From Haloferax marinisediminis (lineage in GTDB: Archaea > Halobacteriota > Halobacteria > Halobacteriales > Haloferacaceae): a stretch of DNA of 64,000 nt. The notes under the pieces were generated by a model. That model had not been told where the DNA came from, made no database searches, and was given only the letters and a program-made list of their open reading frames with translations. The stretch spans positions 124,001 to 188,000 of the forward strand of contig NZ_WKJP01000001.1 of assembly GCF_009674585.1 (NCBI RefSeq), in the 5' to 3' direction. Made by a program: the position numbers and the translations under genes. Below, piece after piece: positions 18,964 through 25,912 of this stretch; positions within the stretch are counted from its first letter, which is position 1; each line of letters opens with the position of its first letter.

Positions 18964-19152
18964 TTAGTGAGTATCTGAGCCGTGCTGTGTCGAAGCGTGA
19001 TGTTCCTCGTCTTCGTGGTCGTCGTCGAGTACGTCGTCGAGACCCCACTCTGCACGCGCACGTGCCTCTTCTCGCGCTTCGGAGCGAATCGCCTCGATCG
19101 CGTCGGCATCCGCGGATGACGACTCCTCGTCAGATTGCTTCGGCGAGTGCGT
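18964..19152 (-). pseudogene. Start-less acidic coding remnant downstream of the CobD paralogue
   Basis: An open minus-strand frame of 62 codons, bounded by a TAG at 19153-19155 and a TAA at 18964-18966, with no ATG, GTG or TTG near its beginning. Its translation is strongly acidic and haloarchaeal in style (AIEAIRSEAREEARARAEWG, then LDDVLDDDHEDEEHH). The opposite strand gives a basic Arg-rich peptide. It overlaps the end of the upstream gene in another frame, so it could be a decayed gene or a frame-shifted tail. No function can be assigned. Confidence 0.35.
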
Positions 19153-20143
19153 CTAGAAGTGCGTCGTTTTCGTGTGGGCGGCGGACGTTGATGCGAACGT
19201 GGGAATCGAGTCCCTGATAGTATCGGGCGTCACGAACCGCGAATCCGCGTTTCCGGGTTTCGTCGAGGACGCGGTCGACGTCGTCTGCTCGGAACAAGAT
19301 GAGCGAACTGTCGGCCGGTGAGACGTCGTACCCGAACGACTCCAGTTCGGCGACCATCCGTGGACGCTCCCGTTCGATTCGGTCGCGGGTGGATTCGAGG
19401 AAAGAGTCCTGTTTGAGACAGTAGGTTGCCGCCTCGACAGCAGGTGACGACAGCACCCACGTACACCGAGCACGCTTGAGTTTTTCACAGACTTCGCCGG
19501 TTGCCGCAGCGAACCCAGCGCGAAGTGACGGCACGCCGAAGACGTTCGTCACCGAGTGGAGTGTGATGACGCCGTCGAGGCCGGCGGTGCTCGGGAGGCG
19601 CGTGAATCCGAGAAACGACTCGTCGACGACGAGTGGCGTGCCGGCACGCCGACATGCATCGATGAACACGCGGAGGTCCTGTGTCGGGTACGCCGACCCC
19701 ATCGGGTTACTGGGGTGACTGAGAATCACCACCGCGTGTTCGGCGGGGTCGACCTCCTCGAATATTCGGTCGTACGGGACGTGAACTGGTTCACCCCCCT
19801 GCAGGCGGATTTCGCGAGCGTACTCGCCGCAACACGGTGCCGGAATTGCGACGGTATCCCCGGGTGAGACGGTCACGCCGAGTGCGAGTCGGAGCGCTTC
19901 GATGACGCCTGCTGCGGGGACGACTTCGTCGGGGTTGCATCCCACGTAGTCGGCGGCGGCGACGCGGAACTCCGAGTAGTCGTCCAGCGAGTAGCGACGG
20001 GAGGACGAAAACGAAGATTCGTAGACACCTGCGAGACCAGGAGGTCTGTCTGGGTTCGACCCCAGACTGAAATCTACGAGGGAGTGGTCGGCGGTCCCGC
20101 CGTGCGTTACCGGGTCAACGTCGGGAACCGAACTGGGGTCCAT
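19130..20143 (-). CDS. CobD-like aminotransferase-fold protein lacking the PLP lysine
   Basis: 337 aa from the ATG at 20143; the longer open frame upstream is not family-like. It is a fold-type I PLP enzyme close to the threonine-phosphate decarboxylase encoded two genes upstream: both have THGGT-type N-termini, SNPMG/NNPTG, VVDESFLGF/VVDEAFLDF and RAGF. The lysine that forms the Schiff base with PLP (K199 in the paralogue, SLTKMFG) is Asn200 here (SVTNVFG; codon AAC at 19544-19546). It therefore cannot work as a normal PLP decarboxylase. A binding, regulatory or decaying role is possible. Confidence 0.85.
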   Translation of the reverse strand: MDPSSVPDVDPVTHGGTADHSLVDFSLGSNPDRPPGLAGVYESSFSSSRRYSLDDYSEFRVAAADYVGCNPDEVVPAAGVIEALRLALGVTVSPGDTVAIPAPCCGEYAREIRLQGGEPVHVPYDRIFEEVDPAEHAVVILSHPSNPMGSAYPTQDLRVFIDACRRAGTPLVVDESFLGFTRLPSTAGLDGVITLHSVTNVFGVPSLRAGFAAATGEVCEKLKRARCTWVLSSPAVEAATYCLKQDSFLESTRDRIERERPRMVAELESFGYDVSPADSSLILFRADDVDRVLDETRKRGFAVRDARYYQGLDSHVRINVRRPHENDALLDALAEAI

Positions 20144-20231
20144 GCCAGATTCTCGTAACGAAACATAATCAATGCTTCTTAATAGACATCTTGTATACCA
20201 CTGACAATTCGTCAGTTTTTCCACAGAATCG

Positions 20232-20987
20232 CTAATGGATTTGCACTTGAGAAACGGTCGCACGCTCGTCGGCGACGACACCAAACTGCGCGGCTTCGAC
20301 ACCCCGGGGAATCGGTGTCGTCGCGTATCGAGAGTCGAGACTGGCTAACACCGCATCACGCACACAGACACGCGACGCGTGTCCGACCGTGGTCGCACTC
20401 CCGGAGAACGCCTCCGGTTCGCCAGCGGGGTCACACGCGGCGATAACGGCATCTGTCGTCGTGCCCGGCGACCCACACCGTGACAGAAGCGTCGCTGCTT
20501 TGGCTTCGGCGGCCACTGCGACGAGGTTCGCCAGCGCACCCGGTTCCAACGACCGTGTCGTTCCGACGACGACGTTCACTGTTCCGACGTGCTCGTCTTC
20601 GCCGCCAGCAGGAGACGACGGCCCACCAGTCTGTTCGAGGCTACCATCACAGTCGGTCGCCGTATCTCCGCCCTCGAACTCGGTTGGCAGTGCGGCCGGG
20701 TTGGACACCCCAGCAGTGACGACGGCCTCGACTGGGCCAAACTGGGCACGACGAGCGTGCGCTTGGTCGACGCCCGTCAGCAGTGTCGGGCCGGCCTCGT
20801 CGAACCCAGCAGCAGCACGACGGCGTTCGATGTACGTATCGAGGTCAGTCTCGGGCCAGCCTTTGGGGACACTCACGTTGTACGCGACTGAGCCGTGTGA
20901 CTCTCCGCCGGCGTACCCTGTCGAGAGCCATCGTGTCTCCGGGCGATAGAGTCGACAGACACCATCGCGACGGGTGACCTCAAACAT
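20232..20987 (-). CDS. cbiZ: Adenosylcobinamide amidohydrolase CbiZ
   Basis: 251 aa. Recognised by VEAVVTAGVSNPAALP, TVNVVVGTTRSLEPGAL and SPGTTTDAVIAACDP. CbiZ cleaves the aminopropanol side chain of adenosylcobinamide to give adenosylcobyric acid, which lets archaea salvage precursors made by others; CbiB and CobY then rebuild the nucleotide loop. It overlaps cobD by 8 nt on the same strand. Confidence 0.9.
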   Translation of the reverse strand: MFEVTRRDGVCRLYRPETRWLSTGYAGGESHGSVAYNVSVPKGWPETDLDTYIERRRAAAGFDEAGPTLLTGVDQAHARRAQFGPVEAVVTAGVSNPAALPTEFEGGDTATDCDGSLEQTGGPSSPAGGEDEHVGTVNVVVGTTRSLEPGALANLVAVAAEAKAATLLSRCGSPGTTTDAVIAACDPAGEPEAFSGSATTVGHASRVCVRDAVLASLDSRYATTPIPRGVEAAQFGVVADERATVSQVQIH

Positions 20988-21990
20988 CGGCGAGTGCGCG
21001 GAGGAGTTCGTCGTTCTCGTCTGGGTGTTTCACGGCGACTCGGACGTGGGAATCGAGTGTCGGGAACGTCGTTGCGTCGCGAATGGCGACGCCGCGTTTG
21101 CGGGCCGTCTCGACCACCGAACGCACGTCTCGGTCACCCACGTCGAGGAGGAGAAACGGTGCATCTGACGGAACCACGTCGAACTGCTCCGACAGTGAGT
21201 CGGCGAGTCGCTCACGTTCGCGTGCGACGCGGGTGCGTGTGTCTTCGACGAAGTCCGTCTGTCGCATACAGTAGGCACCGACCGCGGCCGCGGGAGTCGA
21301 AAGCGACCACGAACGCCGGGCGACAGCGAGACGCGCACCGAGGTCGCCGGTGGCGACGGCGAATCCGGCCCGGATACCAGGGAGGCCGAACATCTTGGTC
21401 AGCGAGCGAGCGACGACGACGCCGGGTTCGCCCGCGAGACTGGGTGCATCCGTGAAGTCGAGGAATGCTTCGTCGACGACGAGAACCGTGTCCGACTCGC
21501 GGCACCGAGCTGCAAACGCACGGAGTCGCTCGGTATCGGCGAGTTCTCCCGTCGGGTTGTTGGGCGTGCAGACGACGGCAACGTCGTGTGGACGCGGGTC
21601 GACATCGAGAATCTCGTCGGGAGCGACGGCGACGGGGTCGGCCCCCTGAAGACGAATCTCACGGTCGTACTCACCGAAACTCGGTTCGGGGACGAGCGCC
21701 GAGTCGCCGGGGCCGAGTGTAACTTCGAAGGCGAGTCGCAGGGCTTCGAGGCCGCCGGCAGTCGGGACGACCGATTCAGGGTCGCATTCGACGTACTCGG
21801 CGGCTGCCGCTCGAAAGTCTGCGTAGTCGTCGTCGGGGTACCGCGTCGCGGCAGCGAGTGCCGACGCGTACACGTCGTCGACGCCGTCTGGTCGGTCAGG
21901 GTTGGTGTTCGCGCTGAAGTCGAGCACCGTCTCGTCGGTCGTCCCGCCGTGAGGGACGCGCGCCGTTCGGGCGACAGAGTCAGGGTCCAT
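20980..21990 (-). CDS. cobD: Threonine-phosphate decarboxylase CobD
   Basis: 336 aa fold-type I PLP enzyme. The internal aldimine lysine is K199 in SLTKMFGLPGIRAGF, the PLP Asp is in VVDEAFLDF, and the NNPTG turn is present. It converts L-threonine-O-phosphate to (R)-1-amino-2-propanol phosphate, the linker that CbiB attaches to adenosylcobyric acid. It sits 20 nt after cobT in the operon. Confidence 0.9.
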   Translation of the reverse strand: MDPDSVARTARVPHGGTTDETVLDFSANTNPDRPDGVDDVYASALAAATRYPDDDYADFRAAAAEYVECDPESVVPTAGGLEALRLAFEVTLGPGDSALVPEPSFGEYDREIRLQGADPVAVAPDEILDVDPRPHDVAVVCTPNNPTGELADTERLRAFAARCRESDTVLVVDEAFLDFTDAPSLAGEPGVVVARSLTKMFGLPGIRAGFAVATGDLGARLAVARRSWSLSTPAAAVGAYCMRQTDFVEDTRTRVARERERLADSLSEQFDVVPSDAPFLLLDVGDRDVRSVVETARKRGVAIRDATTFPTLDSHVRVAVKHPDENDELLRALADV

Positions 21991-22010: not shown

Positions 22011-23012
22011 TCAGCGGCCATCTTCGACCTCGTCGACAGCTTGCGGGTCCAACCGCGAGAGCACGTCGAGCGTCGCTGCTTCCACGTCGTCGAGGACGCC
22101 CATCCGGTCGGCGAGCATGAGCGCACCGCCCATTCCCGCTCCCTCCTTGGCCTCGCCGGCGGCGTATCGGTCGAGCGGGTGCGTCTCGAATCCGGGGTCG
22201 GTGACGACCACGTCGACGTCGAGTTCGGCGGCCGCAGTTTCGAGTTCGGGAACGTCGTCGGCGAGGTACGACGTCGTCGCGAGCGTCAGGTCACCGACTG
22301 CACCGGCGTGTCGGACGAGTGCTGCCGCCGCGAGCAGTTGGGTCCCGCCGCCGAGTGTCACGTCGATGCCCGCTTCGAGTGCGCCGACGGTCAGGCCAGC
22401 GACAACCGGGAGGACTGGGTCGCCGAGATATCGTGCGGCGAGTTCTGGTTTGTGGGCGGCATCGCCGGGCGAGAATCCGCTCGCGTCCAACGCTTCGGCG
22501 ACGACGTCTTCTTTGAGGCTCGTCGGGTTCTCTGGGAGCGACGACGAGACGGGGAACGTCTCTCCGAGGGCGCGGAACACCGCGAGCGCAGTCGTCGTCC
22601 CGCCGGGGACCGTCTCGCCGATGACGAGTTCGTCGTCAGGGAGCGCCGACCCGACCTGCCGGGCGGCCTCGAATGCACCCGGTGCGGTCGGGACAGGTTC
22701 GGGTTCTCGGACGTCGCGACCGGGTTTCGCACCCACGTCCATCGTCGGTGCAGCGGTCGGTTCGGCGAGGCCCGCGTCGACGACGAGAACCTCGAATCCG
22801 GTGAGTTCGCGGACCGAGCGGGTGATTGCGGCAGGTGTCGGACACCCAGTCGGGCTGACGGGCGTCACGGGCGAGCGAACCGTCTGCCCGTACTCGATAA
22901 TCTCGGCGTCGGCGCTCGGCGTGTGGTCTACGACCGACGGGTCGGCGCCGGCGGCGCTGATACCGGGAATCTTCGCTGTTGCCGTCGTCCCGGCGACGAG
23001 AACTACTCGCAT
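22011..23012 (-). CDS. cobT: CobT-type nicotinate-nucleotide:base phosphoribosyltransferase
   Basis: 333 aa. It contains [14 protein letters not shown] and [13 protein letters not shown] glycine-rich motifs, and the C-terminal segment [16 protein letters not shown] that carries the catalytic Glu region. The family activates the lower ligand base to its alpha-ribotide for cobalamin assembly. It overlaps cobY by 10 nt. Archaeal homologues are shorter than bacterial CobT and sometimes annotated UPF0284. Confidence 0.87.
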
Positions 23013-23644
23013 CCGCCCTCCGCGAGTTCGATATCTGTCGGACGGTTCACGTTGAGTGCCAATCGGGAATCGGTTGTGAGGTACACGGTCGAATCTGTGT
23101 CTGAATCGTCGGTGTGTTCGGAAGTTGCTTCGTCAGTGTGTTCGGTTGCTGATTCGTCAGGCTGTGCCGAGTCGGCGCCAACGACACCCAGTCCGGCCGG
23201 ACAGACTGGGGTGCCGCGGTAGTCGAAGACGAGTGATTCGTCGACGCTGCTGCCGAGTGAGCGTTTTCGGGCGACTGGGACACACACCGTGAGTGACCCG
23301 CCCTCGGCGGCCTCCACTACCGCATCGACGTGGTCGGGGAGCAACAGCGGGAGGTCGGCGACGACGGTCACGACCGGACGTAAGACACGGTCCAGCGCAT
23401 AGCCGAGGTCGGAGACGTATCCGTCACCCGGTGCGTCGATGCAGTGTAATTCGAGGTTGCTCGCACGCGTTCGCGTCTCGGGCGTATGCGGAGAAGTCAC
23501 TGCGTAGATTGTTTCTACTCGGGACTGCTGGAGTGCCTCGACGACGTGGTCCAGCATGGGTCGGCCGCACACCTCGACGAGCGGTTTTTCGACCGGAGCA
23601 CCGAGACGAGTTCCACGGCCGCCGCACATCACAAGAGCGTCCAC
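23003..23644 (-). CDS. cobY: GTP:adenosylcobinamide-phosphate guanylyltransferase CobY
   Basis: 213 aa. The nucleotidyltransferase signature [10 protein letters not shown] and [15 protein letters not shown] is at the N-terminus, with [12 protein letters not shown] around the metal-binding Asp. CobY is the archaeal replacement for bacterial CobU and transfers GMP to adenosylcobinamide phosphate. Residues about 165-190 hold a low-complexity Ser/Thr/Asp/Glu insert ([16 protein letters not shown]) that other CobY proteins need not have. Confidence 0.92.
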
Positions 23645-24393
23645 GTGACCACCCCCACGTGAATCGCCGTCGCCCGAGCAAGTTCGTTCGTCGCGCCGAG
23701 CAGGTCACCCGAGACGCCCCCGAGGCGCTGTCGCCCCCACGAGCGAACGAGTAGAGCGACGACGGGACCGCAGACGAGCGCAGCGACGACGGCAGGACCG
23801 CCAGTGGCCGGTGCGAGTGCGACCACCGGAATGCAAGCGACGGCGACGGCGAGAAGCCCTGAGGGGCCGTTTTCGCCGACCAGTGCGGACCCGAGGCCCT
23901 CGTGTGCTGGGTCGCCGAGACAGACGAGAGTCGCCATCCCCGCCTTTGCGCCTACTTCTGCCGCGAGCGCGATCGCGACGCCGGCCGTCACTGCGAGACG
24001 ACCACCTGCGCCGGCGAGACCGAACGCCCCGAGTGCGAGGACAACGAGTGTCAGTCCGAGCGCGAGAAGCCCACCGACACCCGTCTGCGAGTCCTTCAGG
24101 ACCGAGAGGCGGCGTTCGGCGTCACCGTGAACGACGGCCGCATCGCCGAGGTCAGCGAGCCCGTCTGCGTGGGTGACGCCCGTCACGAGGTAGATGGTGA
24201 CGAGATAGAGCGCCGCCACCGTCGGAATCGGAAGTGGGAGAAGCAGTGGAAGCGCAGCGAGTCCGCCGACCACGTAGCCAACGAGTGGAAACACGACGGG
24301 TGCTCGTCTGAAAGCGTCCCACTCTGACTCGCCACCGCCGACGGGGAGTCGAGTGAGAAAGCCCAGTCCACCGCGGACCGCGCTCAGAACCAC
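23629..24393 (-). CDS. cobS: Adenosylcobinamide-GDP ribazoletransferase (cobalamin synthase) CobS
   Basis: 254 aa from a GTG at 24393, chosen because the N-terminus VVLSAVRGGLGFLTRLPVG matches the family and gives a 10-nt overlap with cbiB. It is a multi-pass membrane protein. The conserved VTGVTHADGLADLGDA motif carries the metal-binding acidic residues, and GDAERRLSVLKDSQTGVGG follows. It joins adenosylcobinamide-GDP to alpha-ribazole (phosphate) in the last step of assembly. Confidence 0.92.
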   Translation of the reverse strand: MVLSAVRGGLGFLTRLPVGGGESEWDAFRRAPVVFPLVGYVVGGLAALPLLLPLPIPTVAALYLVTIYLVTGVTHADGLADLGDAAVVHGDAERRLSVLKDSQTGVGGLLALGLTLVVLALGAFGLAGAGGRLAVTAGVAIALAAEVGAKAGMATLVCLGDPAHEGLGSALVGENGPSGLLAVAVACIPVVALAPATGGPAVVAALVCGPVVALLVRSWGRQRLGGVSGDLLGATNELARATAIHVGVVTWTLL

Positions 24394-25286
24394 GCGACCA
24401 CCCCCGTGAGGGCGAAGGCGACGAGCCCAGCCCGAGAGACGAGGCCGACGCCACGTGTGGCCGTTTCGACGTCCGGGAAGTCGGCACCGGCGTCTAACAG
24501 GTAATGACCCCGTTTCTCCAGTCGCGTCCCGAGAAGCACCGCGAGCGTCGCCATCGGCCACCCAGAGTTGGGTGAGGCTGGGCGACGAGCGAGCGACCCG
24601 ACTCGTGTGACCACATTCGGTGACCCCGCAGCGAGTGCGAGTAAGACGGCAGAGACGCGCGCCGGAAGCCACATCACCACGTCGTCGAGGCGTGCAGGGA
24701 CGCGCCCGACTGGTTTGTGGTGGTACCCGAGCATCGAGTCGAGAGTGTTCACGGCCTTCACCCACGCCGCCGCACCCGCCGCGAGTGGAAGCGAAACAGG
24801 TGCGAGGAGCGCAAACGCGACCAGCGGCGCGACCAGTCCGTCGGCGAGGTTCTCGGCCGCACTCTCGACCGCAGCACTGCGAATCTCGGCCGCAGAGAGC
24901 GACGACGGGTCGCGTCCGGCGAGCGCACGGAGTTCCGACCGGGCCGTCTCGACGTCGGTTGCGGTTGCGGTGACGACAGTCTCCGTTACGTCGAGCAACA
25001 TCTGCAAACTCGTCGTCGAAAAGAGGACCAGTGCGGCGACAGCAACGCCAGCCCACAGGGAGACGAGTGACATCCCCCACGTTGCACCGGCAGCGACGCT
25101 GCCAGCGAGGACAGGGAGCGTGAGCGCGGCAACTGCACCGACTGCAACGGGGTGCGACCACTCACGGTCGAACGGGGCGACGAGGCGCCCGAACAGTGCG
25201 ACCGGGTGAACCCGTGCTGGTGGTTCTGCAACCAATCGGTCGAGCGCTGCAGCGACGGCGACGGCGACTGCAGCAGTCACGGGCAC
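24384..25286 (-). CDS. cbiB: Adenosylcobinamide-phosphate synthase CbiB
   Basis: 300 aa, GTG start. It is a multi-pass membrane protein with the family blocks RLVAEPPARVHPVALFGRL, ESAAENLADGLVAPL, VKAVNTLDSMLGYHH and GVPARLDD-type loops (GRVPARLDDVVMWLPAR). It attaches aminopropanol phosphate made by CobD to adenosylcobyric acid. It overlaps the HAD gene upstream and cobS downstream by 10 nt each, so the operon is tightly coupled. Confidence 0.92.
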   Translation of the reverse strand: MPVTAAVAVAVAAALDRLVAEPPARVHPVALFGRLVAPFDREWSHPVAVGAVAALTLPVLAGSVAAGATWGMSLVSLWAGVAVAALVLFSTTSLQMLLDVTETVVTATATDVETARSELRALAGRDPSSLSAAEIRSAAVESAAENLADGLVAPLVAFALLAPVSLPLAAGAAAWVKAVNTLDSMLGYHHKPVGRVPARLDDVVMWLPARVSAVLLALAAGSPNVVTRVGSLARRPASPNSGWPMATLAVLLGTRLEKRGHYLLDAGADFPDVETATRGVGLVSRAGLVAFALTGVVAWF

Positions 25287-25912
25287 GGGTCCCTCCCGCC
25301 CCGTAACCGGCTCGTGAGTTCCTCGAGCGTCGTCTCTCGGAGGTTTACGAACCGCCCGCCGACGCCCTCGACACCGCCGTCGGTGTCCGGGTCGTCACCG
25401 ACGTGAACCAGTTCGGATGGGTCGACGTCGAGGTTGCGAGCGGCTGCCTCGAAAGCTTGCGGATGGGGTTTTCGCCACCCACAGGCGACGCTGGACGTAA
25501 TCGCATCGAATCCGTGCCAGTCGAAGTCCGACCGGATGAGCGACCGTGGGACGAGTTCTGGGACCGAACAGTTCGAGAGGAGGCCGACCGGACCGACCTC
25601 ACGAGCGGCCTCGACTGCCTCGACGGCGCCGGGGCGCGTCGTCACCTCGGGGTCGAACGCCGTGATGACTGCCCGACGGGCGGCGTTGTTGGGAGCATCG
25701 ACACCGCGTGACCGGAGCGCCGCCGCAACGTGGGCGGGGAGCGGAACTTCCGCGCCCTCGGGAGCGTCGATGTGTACCTCGCGGTACGCGTCGTCCCAGT
25801 CGTCAGGGACGGCGACACCGTACTCACGGAGCGCATCAGCGACTGCCGCACCTGGGTCGACGGGATAGTCGACATCGACGAGCGTACCAAAGAGGTCGAA
25901 CGTGACTGCCAC
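25277..25912 (-). CDS. HAD superfamily hydrolase heading the cobalamin operon
   Basis: 211 aa. Motif I is FDLFGTLVD, with the nucleophile Asp6 but Phe8 where phosphatases have the acid/base Asp. Motif II is LLSNCS, motif III a Lys in GWRKPHP, and motif IV VHVGDDPDTD. The 10-nt overlap with cbiB suggests a job in the pathway, and alpha-ribazole phosphate dephosphorylation is the missing step here. The loss of the second Asp in motif I makes a simple phosphatase assignment uncertain. Confidence 0.8.
   Translation of the reverse strand: MAVTFDLFGTLVDVDYPVDPGAAVADALREYGVAVPDDWDDAYREVHIDAPEGAEVPLPAHVAAALRSRGVDAPNNAARRAVITAFDPEVTTRPGAVEAVEAAREVGPVGLLSNCSVPELVPRSLIRSDFDWHGFDAITSSVACGWRKPHPQAFEAAARNLDVDPSELVHVGDDPDTDGGVEGVGGRFVNLRETTLEELTSRLRGGRDPCP

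Follow-up and report, generated by a model that had tools for sequence, protein, structure and literature searches.

Haloferax species keep, in their cobamide gene cluster, a paralogue of the L-threonine-O-3-phosphate decarboxylase CobD in which the Schiff-base lysine has been replaced by asparagine. Comparing the sequences of 15 species, we find good support for the conclusion that this gene, cobD2, has lost catalysis yet stays under purifying selection. The window, that is, the whole 64,000-nucleotide stretch of the Haloferax marinisediminis genome that we analysed, carries the cluster on its minus strand, in the order cbiB, cobS, cobY, cobT, cobD1, cbiZ, cobD2 (Table 1). CobD2 and the neighbouring CobD1 are of the same length and share 50% identity in an alignment spanning both in full. 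A search of the genus located cobD2 after cobD1-cbiZ in 15 of 15 Haloferax species, and the placement of cbiZ between the two cobD genes was kept in the loci checked. Judged by gene order alone, the cluster would be the counterpart of HVO_0587 to HVO_0593 of H. volcanii, with cobD1 corresponding to HVO_0591 and cobD2 to HVO_0593.

Table 1. Features of the cobamide cluster in the window, and lysine-less CobDs of two other haloarchaea (contig given with the position). HVO numbers are those of PMC8305020.
Feature	Position	Strand	Basis
cobD2, lysine-less CobD paralogue, 337 aa (ATG at 20143, stop at 19130)	19130..20143	-	Intact ORF
Codon AAC of Asn200, at the Schiff-base Lys position	19544..19546	-	Alignment with CobDs
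CobD2 residues 178-216 (LGFTRLPSTAGLDGVITLHSVTNVFGVPSLRAGFAAATG), including N200 and R208	19496..19612	-	Conservation
cbiZ-cobD2 intergenic region, 88 bp, with promoter-like block at about 20164-20178	20144..20231	-	
cbiZ (adenosylcobinamide amidohydrolase), flanked by cobD1 and cobD2	20232..20987	-	ORF; HVO_0592 in PMC8305020
cobD1 (L-threonine-O-3-phosphate decarboxylase), catalytic K199, codon at about 21394-21396	20980..21990	-	TIGR01140, PDB match
cobT-like gene, cob cluster	22011..23012	-	ORF, synteny; HVO_0590 in PMC8305020
cobY (nucleotidyltransferase), cob cluster	23003..23644	-	ORF, synteny
cobS and cbiB, upstream end of the cluster, limits approximate	23629..25394	-	ORFs, tblastn; HVO_0588 and HVO_0587 in PMC8305020
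CobD with Thr, the sole CobD found in G036	L173:7845-8843		
Second CobD of G172, with Thr, outside the cob cluster and beside nadB/nadC-like genes	L174:7864-8940		

The original prediction had placed Asn200 (AAC) at the position of the CobD lysine K199, and the alignment bears this out, with N200 of CobD2 falling on K199 of CobD1 in the RSLTK motif. It had also proposed to check whether the Asn is fixed across orthologues; Asn occupies the position in the CobD2s of all 15 Haloferax species, encoded by AAC in 13 and by AAT in two, and Lys in none. Lys is found there in the 14 intact Haloferax CobD1s (14/14), and the CobD1 of H. massiliensis retains it as well, its frameshift falling downstream of that residue. 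An isolated mutation or a sequencing error at N200 is ruled out by the 15 species and the two synonymous Asn codons. Regarding a compensating lysine, this too is ruled out: CobD2 has no conserved lysine position across the 15 Haloferax species, and the whole protein has zero Lys in H. denitrificans, H. sulfurifontis and H. massiliensis (L015-L017), so a PLP internal aldimine is impossible in these three. As far as the sequences tell, CobD-type catalysis by CobD2 is very probably excluded for practical purposes.

In order to evaluate the rest of the active site, we used as reference the 105 positions at which 93% or more of the K-bearing haloarchaeal CobDs agree. CobD2 retains 74 of them (in all 15 species or all but one), and 31 are altered. 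The claim that the PLP Asp and the Arg persist in the protein stands, given that D174, the PLP-ring Asp, and R208, the phosphate-binding Arg, are present in 15/15 CobD2s, but many other active-site residues have changed. S197, T199, R304 and R317 are also retained, together with H14-G15-G16 (H14 in 14/15). Among the positions altered in at least 14 species, N28 is Gly in all 15, S104 became Cys, F105 became Cys or Ser, N145 became Ser or Ala, and R196 is His in 14/15, with Arg remaining in H. mucosum. Besides, Y51 is Asp in three species and N146 is His or Asp in three, and positions 51, 145, 146, 148 and 177 vary among the 15. We assigned roles to individual residues from what is generally known about the structures of CobD and HisC: we take F105 to be the counterpart of the aromatic residue that stacks on the PLP ring, N28 presumably aligns with the substrate-site Asn of CobD, and the Y51 counterpart in related enzymes is assumed to be contributed across the dimer interface. 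A total of 24 sites are invariant in CobD2 and rare in CobD, many of them at the old active site, and G28, S29, C104, N200, V204 and S206 are invariant in the pocket. Positions from a hand-picked list of active-site motifs make up 15 of the 31 altered sites versus 22 of the 74 retained ones, a difference that is suggestive at most (one-sided p 0.056).

Selection on cobD2, another of the checks proposed, turned out to be purifying, and we saw no pseudogene decay. Pairwise Nei-Gojobori estimates among the 15 species gave a median dN/dS of 0.16 with a maximum of 0.27, matching the median of 0.18 obtained for CobD1. The ORF is intact in 15/15 species despite a protein divergence of up to 26%, with no in-frame stops in any of the 15. 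Residues 178-216 form the most conserved 39-residue segment of CobD2, with 35/39 sites invariant across the 15 species (28/39 in the same segment of CobD1), a number attained in 0 of 2001 permutations. From the two outcomes foreseen at the start, a dead protein that is kept and a gene in recent decay, these results agree with the first and contradict the second. CobD2 is in this sense a pseudoenzyme, with its catalytic residue lost and its gene kept under purifying selection.

The fold was also said to be kept, and a predicted model (AlphaFold) agrees, with a mean pLDDT of 97 and a pTM of 0.94 when a deep mixed alignment of 104 sequences was used as input; the 15 CobD2s alone gave a pLDDT of 43. 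The top structural match of the model is Salmonella CobD 1lc5 (Z 39.8, rmsd 1.9, 325 residues), and since HisC structures come within 1 Z unit of it, CobD and HisC are indistinguishable by fold alone. According to the prediction, CobD2 is a complete CobD fold. At the level of sequence, it matches the fold-type-I PLP-dependent superfamily (PF00155 Aminotran_1_2, 110.3 bits for a cut-off of 19.7) and misses the CobD equivalog TIGR01140, with 225.2 bits versus a cut-off of 290.55. CobD1 lies above that cut-off, with 304.2 bits, and its best PDB sequence match is 1lc5 (E 3.9e-34). With Salmonella CobD (1lc5/1lkc/1lc7/1lc8), CobD2 shares the full fold, the PLP Asp, the phosphate Arg and the substrate-side Arg residues, as well as, with the CobD reference family, a location in a cobamide gene cluster. 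It differs in the absence of the Schiff-base Lys, in the replacement of F105, N28 and N145, and in an identity to 1lc5 of 22%, while in the Haloferax CobD1, unlike CobD2, both the Lys and the rest of the PLP site are intact.

In the trees, the CobD2 sequences form one clade (support 100/100) whose stem, of 0.85, is about five times longer than that of the Haloferax CobD1s, 0.17, a value resembling that of other genera. A long stem followed by a slow crown means fast change and then constraint, hence an altered protein and not a dying one. CobD2 falls outside Haloferax CobD1 in the best tree, and the AU test tolerates a Haloferax-specific duplication (p 0.29). Judging by the sequences, CobD2 had already split off from CobD when the Haloferax species examined last shared an ancestor, and a single long branch saw the Schiff-base lysine lost together with a large part of the PLP pocket. 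With 342 genomes of the order covered, scores exceeding 600 bits were restricted to Haloferax, and the next best match had 421 bits. As a candidate for a Lys-bearing CobD2 intermediate outside the genus we considered the tandem copies of genome G153, and ruled them out, as the tree groups them with their own genus. These K-bearing CobDs lie in tandem directly upstream of cbiZ (L050:3402-5518), and one of them shows CobD2-like motif changes (DETFLGFTR, TAGEY) with the Lys retained. CobD duplication is seen again in genomes G520 and G483, which belong to the same phylum (L148, L150), where two K-bearing paralogues are separated by about 2.3 kb.

The gap between cbiZ and cobD2, of 88 bp here and of roughly 90-200 bp in other loci checked, contains a block, GAAG-nn-TTGAnTATG, conserved in the 15 species at about 27-40 nt upstream of the cobD2 ATG. 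This block would be in keeping with a TATA-type promoter driving an archaeal gene with almost no leader, and because of this resemblance cobD2 may have its own transcription besides that of the cluster. A further conserved CTAGCA is found closer to the cobD2 start in most species. A search at the Rfam gathering threshold gave no RNA element or riboswitch upstream of cobD2. Hence, the view that cobD2 ends the same operon holds for the gene order, and for transcription is a supposition, given the 88-bp gap with its promoter-like block.

H. massiliensis (G009) departs from the other species in the state of the cluster. Its cobD1 (L054:5955-6939) has a 23-bp deletion leading to a frameshift and its cbiB (L054:9347-9754) has a large internal deletion, either of which may be an assembly error, and its cobD2 is intact. 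Co-decay of CobD2 with CobD1 was considered for this species and set aside, the N : S counts giving no clear signal of relaxation in its CobD2 lineage (9 N : 12 S vs 8 : 13 in the sister).

What, then, would CobD2 do? We see an even chance that it is a PLP-independent CobD-fold pseudoenzyme working non-catalytically as a partner of CobD1. We favour a non-catalytic subunit or regulator because the protein is retained beside a live paralogue, with a full fold and with scaffold positions kept. CobD2 would fold as a fold-type-I subunit, as predicted with high confidence, and would most likely join CobD1 as the other subunit of a hetero-oligomer, which could stabilise or allosterically tune threonine-phosphate decarboxylation or, alternatively, pass aminopropanol phosphate to CbiB. 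It might also sense the pathway by binding one of its phosphorylated metabolites, which is plausible because the substrate-anion residues H14-G15-G16, R304 and R317 are kept. The following observations count against a partnership with CobD1: CobD1 lacks a matching acceleration, as re-tooled dimerisation might produce; Y51, presumably a cross-interface residue, is lost in three species; CobD2 is intact in H. massiliensis although cobD1 is frameshifted and cbiB deleted; and the promoter-like block would permit cobD2 expression apart from CobD1.

By analogy with serine palmitoyltransferase SPT1/SPT2 and with the trypanosome AdoMetDC-prozyme, a role of CobD2 as regulator or partner is plausible. 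SPT1 has no PLP Lys and forms a pair with SPT2, which is unstable without it (PMC6148460). Like CobD2, the eukaryotic SPT1/LCB1 is a retained fold-type-I paralogue that has lost the PLP Lys along with further residues of the active site; it is, however, a proven required partner of SPT2 and belongs to a different subfamily (AOS), while for CobD2 a partnership is proposed. The AdoMetDC prozyme, itself a dead paralogue, activates the live one (PMC5201418), and both this trypanosomatid protein and the inactive deoxyhypusine synthase paralogue are, like CobD2, lineage-restricted, dead and retained copies of a decarboxylase or biosynthetic enzyme (PMC5201418, PMC3663545). They differ in their unrelated folds and cofactors, and in having been proven to activate their live paralogues strongly (PMC5201418, PMC3663545).

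One could argue that CobD2 acts independently of CobD1, as a stand-alone sensor or carrier for, say, L-threonine phosphate, aminopropanol phosphate or free PLP/PMP, and we regard this as possible, if doubtful. It would fit with the retention of HGG, R208, R304, R317, S197, T199 and D174 next to altered ring-contact and catalytic residues, with a pocket segment that is the most conserved part of the protein, with a promoter-like block of its own and with the intact CobD2 of a species in which CobD1 is broken (H. massiliensis). However, the predicted structure is a bare aminotransferase fold, without a DNA-binding or output domain, and N28, the presumed counterpart of the substrate-site Asn, is Gly in all species.

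An enzyme with a new, lysine-independent chemistry in a rebuilt pocket (G28, S29, C104, N200, V204, S206, and H196 in 14/15) is an unlikely reading, although it would account for the 24 sites invariant in CobD2 alone, many of which lie in the former active site, and for the long stem followed by constraint. There is a precedent for a lysine-less fold-type-I enzyme in ColD, a His-for-Lys dehydrase. The positions expected to bind PLP/PMP vary (51, 145, 146, 148, 177), H196 is Arg in H. mucosum, and no Haloferax-limited pathway step is known that needs an enzyme, all of which speak against it. It is rather improbable, too, that a PLP-free rebuilt pocket (G28/S29, C104, H196, N200, S206) takes part in the assembly of the cobamide nucleotide loop in haloarchaea, be it through a new step that needs no lysine or through regulatory binding; if true, this would be a new role on a scaffold normally tied to PLP.

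Regarding the annotation, passages of PMC8305020, the sole relevant paper that we found on HVO_0593 or cobD2 in archaea, list H. volcanii HVO_0593 as "cobD2" with CobD function, and make no mention of the missing lysine. A second active CobD isozyme, as this annotation implies, would agree with that assignment, with the 50% identity to CobD1, the shared cluster and the full fold, but it is very unlikely in view of the loss of the Schiff-base Lys in 15/15 species, of orthologues without any lysine and of a TIGR01140 score of 225, under the cut-off of 290.55. A decaying pseudogene, in line with the lost catalytic residues and the relaxed positions 51, 145, 146 and 148, is hardly credible, being ruled out at the genus level by ORFs intact in 15/15 species at up to 26% divergence, a dN/dS of about 0.16 and a pocket segment with 35/39 invariant sites.

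Taken as catalysis, the CobD function given to HVO_0593 is very probably wrong, and the functional annotation of this gene of a model archaeon is corrected accordingly, PLP chemistry being almost certainly beyond its product. Pseudoenzyme paralogues are already known, and a fixed lysine-less CobD within the cobamide cluster appears to be new. The cobD2/cobD1 pair, a conserved pseudoenzyme of the PLP fold next to the live enzyme from which it derives, is found in an archaeon amenable to genetics, in which the question of why dead paralogues persist can be tested.

Finally, two other haloarchaeal CobDs, those of genomes G036 and G172, have Thr at the Schiff-base position (SLGTTFG and SPSTTFG). 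The copy of G172 inside the cob cluster retains the Lys. Both Thr-CobDs are on long branches and cluster together in the wider tree, and they fall outside the Haloferax CobD2 clade, which suggests that the CobD fold loses its chemistry more than once.
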